NCBI GenBank assembly: GCA_019636555.1
Contig: JAHBXH010000001.1
Span: forward strand, 558,001 to 622,000
Length of the DNA stretch: 64,000 bases
DNA from: Phycisphaeraceae bacterium
GTDB lineage: Bacteria; Planctomycetota; Phycisphaerae; Phycisphaerales; UBA1924
Direction: 5' to 3'
Shown here: piece by piece, positions 38,558 through 48,294 of the stretch
How positions within the stretch are numbered: the first letter of the stretch is position 1
Layout of the letters: the number at the start of each line of letters is the position of its first letter
Notes under the pieces: generated by a model
Seen by the model: the letters and a program-made list of their open reading frames with translations, nothing else
What the model was told of the DNA's origin: nothing
Databases searched by the model: none
Translations under genes and position numbers: made by a program

Positions 38558-38959
38558 ATGTCCGACACTGCTGTTGACGCGAAAGTGAAAGAAATCGGCG
38601 ACAAACTGGCTGGCCTCAGCCTCAAGGAAGCCGTTGACCTCGGCAAGTACCTGAAGGATGCCTACGGCATCGAAGCCGCTGCAGGTGGCGCGGTGGTGAT
38701 GGCGGGTGGCGCAGCCGGCGGCGGCGCGGCCAAGGCCGAAGAGAAGGACAGCTTCGACGTGATCCTCAAGGCCGTCGATGCCGCCAAGAAGATCCAGGTC
38801 ATCAAGGTCGTCCGCGAGGCGACGGGCCTCGGTCTTGCCGAGGCGAAGGCGTTCGTCGATGCCCCGGGCAAGCCGATCAAGACCGGCCTCTCGAAGGACG
38901 AGGCGGAGAAGCTCAAGAAGACCATCACCGACGCGGGCGGCACGGTCGAGCTCGCCTAA
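38558..38959 (+). CDS. rplL: 50S ribosomal protein bL12 (L7/L12)
   Basis: Stalk protein of the large subunit that recruits translation GTPases. The 133 residues show the N-terminal dimerisation domain ([20 protein letters not shown]), a flexible Ala/Gly hinge ([18 protein letters not shown]) and the conserved C-terminal domain ([39 protein letters not shown]). The hinge is slightly longer than in E. coli. The usual upstream genes rplK-rplA-rplJ are missing: a bestrophin-like gene precedes it. A terminator follows, so only a fraction of transcription would reach rpoB. Confidence 0.97.
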
Positions 38960-39323
38960 TCCATCGTCGCACGAACGTCCGGTTGGAACAGTGCGTATTC
39001 ACGGAAGGCCCGGGCAACCGGGCCTTCTGCCTTTTTGGTCGCCCGAACTTATTGCGAACAAAACTTCTGCCAATTCGGCGAAAGTTTTGAGAAAAAACTC
39101 AAGAAGCCCTTGCGGGGGTCGTGCGGGGTTGATCTAGGGGTGCGTATACTGATCGGTTCGGCTCCGAAAGAGCGAACACGGCGGCGGCACTCGTTTTGGC
39201 ACTTGGGCGATTGAACTGAAACTCTCGGCGTGAGCACAAAAGGCTTGTGAACCAGGTCGGGGTATGACTCCCTGCGACGACTTCGTCGGCGCGGCGTGTT
39301 ATCCATCGGACGAAAGGACTTCG
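38960..39323 (+). promoter_or_regulatory. rplL-rpoB intergenic leader with terminator and possible promoter
   Basis: It contains the terminator at 39004-39036, then about 290 bp before rpoB. A -10-like TATACT lies at 39145-39150 without a clear -35, so an rpoB promoter here is only possible. The rest is an untranslated leader ending in GAAAGGA before ATG 39324. No other gene was seen. Confidence 0.35.
39004..39036 (+). terminator. Rho-independent terminator/attenuator after rplL
   Basis: A 10-bp stem GAAGGCCCGG / CCGGGCCTTC with loop GCAA, then TGCCTTTTT. It lies between rplL and rpoB, as the partial terminators of rpl-rpo operons do. Confidence 0.85.
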
Positions 39324-43199
<3,876 letters not shown>

Positions 43200-43211
43200 G
43201 GAGGCTGTGTC

Positions 43212-43595
43212 GTGGCGAGCTGGGCAGATCTAGCGGTCGAGGCACGTGACGCTTCCTTCGCATTGAAGGAAGGTAATAGGTTGCGCGCCGCGGCAAACCG
43301 GGCCTACTACGCCGCATTCTCGGCATTGACTGCCACGGCGATTCGCTCCGGCGTTACGATGCCCTTGGACCAAGAAGGACCCTCCCATGCCAAAGCCATC
43401 GACGGAACGATCGTCGCATCGCTCCATAAAGTGAAACCGGAAGATCAGGGCCGATTGTTCTCCATTATGCCGAATCTTTACCGATTGCGCACGATTGCGG
43501 ACTACCGACCGTCCATGTTGCTGGATGATTCGGATATTCGATTGGCACTCGGAGACATGATGAAGGCCTTTGAAATTCTGAAGGAGGAAGAATGA
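43212..43595 (+). CDS. HEPN-domain protein inserted between rpoB and rpoC
   Basis: A 127-residue all-alpha protein of the HEPN superfamily (COG1895/COG2250-like). The first helix pair carries LRAAANRAYYAAFSAL (residues 24-39). A His-containing segment EGPSHAKAIDGTIVASLH follows, then the R-x-x-x-D-Y-like stretch LYRLRTIADYRP (89-100) and a final helix. The Rx4-6H ribonuclease motif of toxic HEPN proteins is not evident, so RNase activity is doubtful. The start is GTG 43212, with AAGGAGG (43198-43204) overlapping the rpoB stop. It overlaps the next gene by ATGA. GC is 30 of 60 in each of two internal lines, below rpoB and rpoC, consistent with acquisition. A toxin-antitoxin or defence role is inference. 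Confidence 0.8.
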   Translation: MASWADLAVEARDASFALKEGNRLRAAANRAYYAAFSALTATAIRSGVTMPLDQEGPSHAKAIDGTIVASLHKVKPEDQGRLFSIMPNLYRLRTIADYRPSMLLDDSDIRLALGDMMKAFEILKEEE

Positions 43596-43873
43596 CGATT
43601 CCCGCTTCGCCTCCGCCTTCCGGCGTGATTGAGAAGGTTAATATCGCGATCCAGCATGACGGCGATGCATCGCGGTACGGTTTTCAAGTGCTGGCTGAGA
43701 GTTCGCGCACCGAAGGAGATTGGACGTATCTGGTGATCGATCCGACTAAGCGGAACGGACTCCGCGCGTACGAATTTGCTTCCATTCTCGGTCGCGTGGA
43801 GGCCGAGGTTCGGAAGTCTGTTCAGGAAACGAAGGTCATTTTGCTTCCAGCCTCCGGCACCGTGAATCCGTAG
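43592..43873 (+). CDS. Unknown 93-residue partner of the HEPN protein
   Basis: A small alpha/beta protein: beta-like segments ([31 protein letters not shown]), a helix ([18 protein letters not shown]) and a last strand ([10 protein letters not shown]). It lacks the GSx...DxD motif of the MNT nucleotidyltransferases that usually accompany HEPN proteins, so it is a different partner type. Its ATG overlaps the HEPN stop (ATGA), giving strict translational coupling. rpoC starts 50 bp later with its own AAGGA site. A role as antitoxin, inhibitor or nucleic-acid adaptor for the HEPN protein is possible, but nothing in the sequence shows which. Confidence 0.72.
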
Positions 43874-43923
43874 ATCAATTTAGTTTCGGTCGTCCGAAGC
43901 TGGTACTGAGAAGGACTACTGCA

Positions 43924-48294
<4,371 letters not shown>

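Follow-up and report, generated by a model that had tools for sequence, protein, structure and literature searches.

What are a HEPN-fold gene and a small partner gene doing between rpoB and rpoC, and does their position tie them to RNA polymerase? We addressed this question for a 64,000-nucleotide (nt) stretch of a Phycisphaeraceae genome (GenBank GCA_019636555.1, contig JAHBXH010000001.1, positions 558,001 to 622,000), hereafter the window. An initial annotation had described the rpoB–rpoC gap as occupied by two same-strand genes, for a HEPN protein of 127 amino acids (aa) and for a partner of 93 aa, which sequence and Pfam confirmed, and had offered an RNA-polymerase-linked toxin–antitoxin or phage-sensing module as a speculative reading. 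The toxin–antitoxin-like layout stood and proved recurrent, but the RNA-polymerase-specific link did not, since the same module occupies iscS–iscU, rpsL–rpsG, ftsA–ftsZ and other gaps. On balance, we favor reading the pair as a HEPN toxin- and antidote-like module nested in essential operons, with no specific tie to RNA polymerase.

The module recurs in many housekeeping operons

A scan of contigs from named genomes yielded 18 loci, eight of which have the HEPN gene between rpoB and rpoC, including one on a complete chromosome, ZRK34 (L018; handles beginning with L and G denote loci and genomes). Among 298 genomes of the class, 51 gave a match at E≤1e-8 and 24 contained the family at E<1e-17 (25 matches), with the next match at 1.6e-13. 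The site was rpoB–rpoC in 13 of these 24 genomes (14 matches), iscS–iscU in five, rpsL–rpsG in one and elsewhere in five. In a sample of 392 genomes spread across the phylum, five, including three from the class, carried the family at E≤1e-14. One genome (G017) has two modules, one at rpoBC and one at iscSU, and L012 (5884-7768) carries a tandem of HEPN–partner modules between rpoB and rpoC, the two belonging to different lineages.

The family also extends beyond the class: a Sumerlaeota genome carries it at atpG–atpD (L013), and another locus lies at gltB–gltD (L115). In the phylum of the L025 genome, given as Armatimonadota, it was found in 24 of 291 genomes (29 matches). Sites there were rpsJ–rplC, ftsA–ftsZ, etfB–etfA, ilvN–ilvC (three loci) and iscS–iscU (L149), as well as positions downstream of groEL and of sufB, and 3' of genes for GMP synthase, isocitrate/isopropylmalate dehydrogenase and two 2-oxoacid dehydrogenase acyltransferases (locus read by eye). 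Hence, while the initial annotation had allowed for the pair never being seen again, it recurs both between rpoB and rpoC in the class and in other operons. No relative was detected on viral contigs by a scan with one HEPN pattern, the phage record collection lying outside that search. A tblastn search of plasmid records, for which a single member was the query, likewise gave none.

We assigned site labels to 64 distinct modules, a set without L006 (a HEPN gene without partner and a weak match) and L048 (the G038 remnant described below). Thirty-three are flanked on both sides by genes of a single complex or pathway (17 rpoBC, seven iscSU, three ilvNC and six single sites) and 31 lie elsewhere; the rpoBC share is a biased frequency because rpoBC members served as seeds for our profiles. 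Within a single genus, the iscS–iscU gap spans 40–82 nt in five of six genomes, and in the sixth it contains the module and spans 702 nt. Given that the module is found in many operons other than those of RNA polymerase, the trait its members share is nesting in housekeeping operons, with rpoBC one frequent site.

HepT-like (PF01934) loci served as a control. Matches occurred in 90 of 150 class genomes, and none of the 30 loci taken from them had an rpoB or rpoC match, unlike the window family. Their neighbors were miscellaneous and in part housekeeping (GltX-type, RuvB, RecO, MutS, IlvD), and no ribosomal, RNA-polymerase, ATP-synthase, FtsA/FtsZ or NifS/NifU family was among the HepT-like neighbor families listed (25 of 29 and 25 of 38); this control compares neighbor families, within 1000 nt against 500 nt for the modules, and not nesting between two genes of one operon. 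The neighbor scans covered 44 modules, after leaving out L009, L010, L011 and the 17 rpoBC modules. Their family search included 74 of 77 upstream open reading frames (ORFs; three long ones were omitted and that of L015 was swapped for its iscS ORF), all 79 downstream ORFs and all 105 control ORFs.

Organization of the locus

The pair and its surroundings in the window are arranged as follows.

38558..38959, + strand: rplL (ribosomal protein L7/L12), upstream operon gene (Pfam PF00542, PF16320)
39264..43199, + strand: rpoB, longest ORF, true start possibly further in (Pfam Rpb2 domains)
43198..43204, + strand: ribosome-binding site AAGGAGG, overlapping the rpoB stop codon (sequence)
43212..43595, + strand: HEPN-fold gene, 127 aa, predicted toxin, with conserved H59, R93 and D97
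43592..43873, + strand: partner gene, 93 aa, predicted antidote, alpha-beta-beta-alpha-beta model
43874..43923, + strand: rest of the rpoB–rpoC spacer, 50 nt (sequence and geometry)
43924..48294, + strand: rpoC (Pfam Rpb1 domains)

Both the AAGGAGG over the rpoB stop and the ATGA in which the HEPN stop overlaps the partner start were present as first annotated. Only 12 nt separate rpoB from the HEPN gene in the window, so the pair is probably expressed from the rpoBC transcript. The annotated counts of guanine plus cytosine (GC) were exact, at 30/60 in the lines at 43441 and 43501, 36/60 in rpoB (42661) and 43/60 in rpoC (44161). Third-position GC is 63.0 and 62.4% in the module genes versus 84.6 and 85.8% in rpoB and rpoC, which would fit a recent arrival of the window module. 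Inspection by eye revealed no repeats or mobility genes at the window junction, and no target duplication when the insert was compared with empty same-genus spacers. The HEPN gene gives one match in the window genome. Three HepT-like (PF01934) matches are also present in this genome, the best at G000:C1:266195-266476.

With start codons chosen by script, the layout was repeated across the rpoBC modules. The HEPN start lies −4 to 60 nt from the rpoB stop in 16 of 17 modules, the seventeenth being a second tandem copy, and the partner start ranges from 37 nt upstream to 2 nt downstream of the HEPN stop. The two genes overlap or nearly touch in all 17, and rpoC follows the partner after 26–97 nt, the first tandem copy aside.

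The two genes travel together under selection

Downstream of HEPN, 54 of the 64 modules have a partner-profile match and the other ten (including L015) a small ORF, such that no HEPN gene among the 64 lacks a small ORF behind it. Distances among HEPN proteins and among partners are correlated (r 0.56, 35 modules). In these respects the pair resembles a type II-like toxin–antitoxin system, with two small adjacent genes travelling together. Both genes evolve under purifying selection in relatives, with omega of 0.18 for HEPN and 0.11 for the partner at dS of 0.76 and 0.68 (L096–L100). A mispredicted frame was rejected on the basis of this selection and the recurrence of the pair.

Searching the 298 class genomes with the partner profile (E≤1e-6) returned 24, of which 19 are shared with the 24 HEPN genomes. 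The five HEPN genomes that it missed (G019, G045, G103, G238, G287) each have a small ORF after HEPN. Conversely, partner sequence stands with no intact HEPN gene alongside in five genomes of the class, at rpoB–rpoC in G153, G136 and G212 and elsewhere in G071 and G185. HEPN remnants persist as the last 25 codons in G153 and as the first part of the gene in G212 and G071, and none is visible in G136 or G185. Loss of HEPN with retention of the partner agrees with a toxin and its antidote, albeit in small numbers. Two points temper this argument: of the five partner frames only those of G153 and G071 look complete, the other three being N-terminally damaged, and HEPN is both the longer and the first gene.

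A HEPN protein with an alternative site and a non-MNT partner

The window protein is modeled with the HEPN four-helix fold, and its best structural match is 2hsb (AF0298 type). Its PF05168 score of 18.6 bits lies under the curated Pfam cut-off of 22, and precomputed PF05168 assignments are found on 12 of 15 homologues. H59, R93 and D97 are each kept in 63 of 64 modules. The canonical Rx4-6H motif is missing, as the window reads R93-TIADY and a histidine stands at +5 to +7 from R93 in seven of 64 modules. Across the 64 modules the pattern is that of the AF0298 type, with the arginine retained, the motif histidine replaced and a second conserved histidine upstream. PMC3710099 proposes an alternative active site for AF0298-type HEPN-T proteins. 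By analogy, the window HEPN would be a metal-independent RNase acting through His59, Arg93 and Asp97.

The partner is predicted to fold as alpha-beta-beta-alpha-beta. It had been described at the outset as lacking the minimal nucleotidyltransferase (MNT) motif, and Pfam bears this out, with no nucleotidyltransferase match at E≤1; NCBIfam gave nothing. An ordinary MNT antitoxin was thereby rejected. Structure comparison returned no confident fold. RbfA and other small proteins that we label KH-like scored weakly, as did the unrelated YiiP C-terminal domain, Ohr and SAM synthetase, giving no family assignment. The partner family comprises 106 proteins, none of which carries a Pfam domain. In one subfamily (L014, L025, L124) the partner is longer (166–175 aa) and extended at its C-terminus. 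The ilvN–ilvC modules L126, L134 and L137 have a second partner-like ORF, which in L126 lies upstream of HEPN.

The closest known systems are HEPN/MNT, AF0298-type HEPN-T and AbiV, the HEPN RNase of a two-component anti-phage system; these features set the module apart from the first two. The type VII HEPN/MNT (HepT/MntA) pairs combine a canonical Rx4-6H protein with a minimal nucleotidyltransferase, whereas the window HEPN lacks that motif and its partner lacks such a match. Gene order is also reversed: the MNT gene is almost always 5' according to PMC3710099, while HEPN is 5' in the window and the partner is 3' in 54 of 64 modules by profile. HEPN-T of the AF0298 type (PDB 2hsb; Pfam PF05168) shares the conserved alternative His/Arg site, but the window protein differs in its sub-cut-off PF05168 score, its non-MNT partner and its first position in the pair.

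rpoB–rpoC junctions vary among relatives

We surveyed the junction in the window genome and 60 relatives of its order, finding the head of rpoC in 59 of 61 and a measurable junction in 58. The gap is 56–139 nt in 30 junctions and expanded (≥240 nt) in 28. Five of the expanded gaps contain the HEPN pair (G000, G017, G019, G045, G056), one contains a fused remnant matching both the HEPN and partner profiles (G038), and 22 contain other ORFs or, in G041, no clear ORF. Close relatives with rpoB and rpoC adjacent, which the initial annotation had envisaged, do exist: five of six readable junctions in the genus of the window are empty, with spacers of 106–121 nt. The sixth (G007) has a different 125-aa ORF.

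Several inserts follow patterns of their own. An ORF of 178–265 aa with a lipoprotein-like start (by eye) replaces the HEPN pair in seven same-family gaps (L056, L055, L052, L059, L045, L068 and L058, in G008, G014, G016, G018, G023, G029 and G034). A sulfotransferase-like ORF (by eye) of ~300 aa lies between rpoB and rpoC in six of six sampled genomes of one family (L072, L075, L071, L065, L077 and L070, in G039, G043, G047, G051, G055 and G059). The 125-aa ORF of G007 (L030) and a 122-aa ORF of G031 (L043) have a similar layout, running into the rpoC start, and as candidate lone partner-like proteins gave no partner-profile match at E 0.01.

This variability raises the question of whether the pair is a passenger of permissive gaps, where a spacer tolerates inserts and drift places a hitch-hiker with some other small function irrespective of operon essentiality. 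That 28 of 58 junctions are expanded, 22 of them with other ORFs or (one) none, is what such a process would leave, as is the clustering of site labels on the 64-module tree. However, the same module is found in iscS–iscU, rpsL–rpsG, rpsJ–rplC, ftsA–ftsZ and others, including in another phylum, and HEPN and partner are kept together with both constrained. We therefore regard the passenger explanation as unlikely, although it is the strongest of the alternatives.

Probable repeated entry of the module into such gaps

In a careful tree of 39 modules, the rpoBC label requires five changes, at least two of them forced by well-supported branches. Constraining all rpoBC modules to one clade cost 57 log units (p-AU 0.0004), which rejects a single ancestral rpoBC insertion followed by plain vertical descent. 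Holding four same-family rpoBC copies together gave p-AU 0.03, and making the two tandem copies of L012 sisters gave 0.0002. A quick tree of all 64 modules required 15 site changes (rpoBC 9, iscSU 4).

Some observations count against repeated change of site. Labels cluster beyond shuffles on both the 39- and 64-module trees, and on the former six rpoBC modules from a single family form one group. Distances between HEPN proteins correlate with those between host RpoC proteins (r 0.73, 15 modules), a correlation that falls to r 0.33 in the 11 modules without same-genus duplicates. Taken together, the site changes, the clustering and the host correlation imply repeated insertion with inheritance in between. 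The module thus seems to have entered such gaps repeatedly.

These histories also bear on whether the module regulates its operon, with a non-catalytic or mRNA-cleaving HEPN and an RNA-binding partner setting the ratio of upstream to downstream products. We consider this improbable, as close relatives with empty same-genus junctions manage without the module, modules at one site do not form a single lineage, and one lineage occupies several operons, which would not be expected of a dedicated regulator. Finally, proteins that bind RNA polymerase, as a specific partner or phage sensor, would suit rpoB–rpoC being occupied more often than any other site (in 13 of 24 class genomes), but we rejected this explanation as highly implausible because the same family is present in iscS–iscU, rpsL–rpsG, rpsJ–rplC, ftsA–ftsZ, ilvN–ilvC, atpG–atpD and other operons unrelated to RNA polymerase.

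Discussion

Toxin–antitoxin modules are usually seen as insulated units that regulate themselves and frequently reside on mobile DNA. A module nested in essential operons could work differently. HEPN and partner would be produced from the mRNA of the host operon, and the partner would bind and silence the HEPN RNase. Were transcription of the host operon to collapse, as in phage takeover or severe stress, a less stable partner would vanish first and the RNase would be freed. Sensing of phage by the module is speculative. Removal from an essential operon would be risky, and such selfish persistence could explain the choice of sites even without benefit to the host.

More tentatively, these pairs may form a class of their own, addiction or sentinel modules that settle time and again within the most indispensable operons (RNA polymerase, ribosome, Fe–S assembly, ATP synthase, FtsA/FtsZ). 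Any halt in core gene expression would then cut off the supply of antidote and set the toxin free, and a cell that lost the module would put an essential operon at risk. The components would be a known toxin fold, a new partner and a lifestyle that, as far as our searches show, is unreported: full-text literature searches, judged from titles and abstract starts and with preprints and most subscription papers outside their scope, found no report of such operon nesting and no paper on an insert 'between rpoB and rpoC'.

The partner family is a new candidate antidote family, and even junctions such as rpoB–rpoC, rpsL–rpsG and ftsA–ftsZ can be invaded. If our interpretation is correct, a pair that repeatedly inserts itself among the subunit genes of essential operons, and does so in two phyla or more, would represent a different mode of persistence and expression for such modules, with the supply of antidote tied to genes indispensable to the cell. 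This would offer a concrete way to ask whether such modules sense the shut-off of their host.
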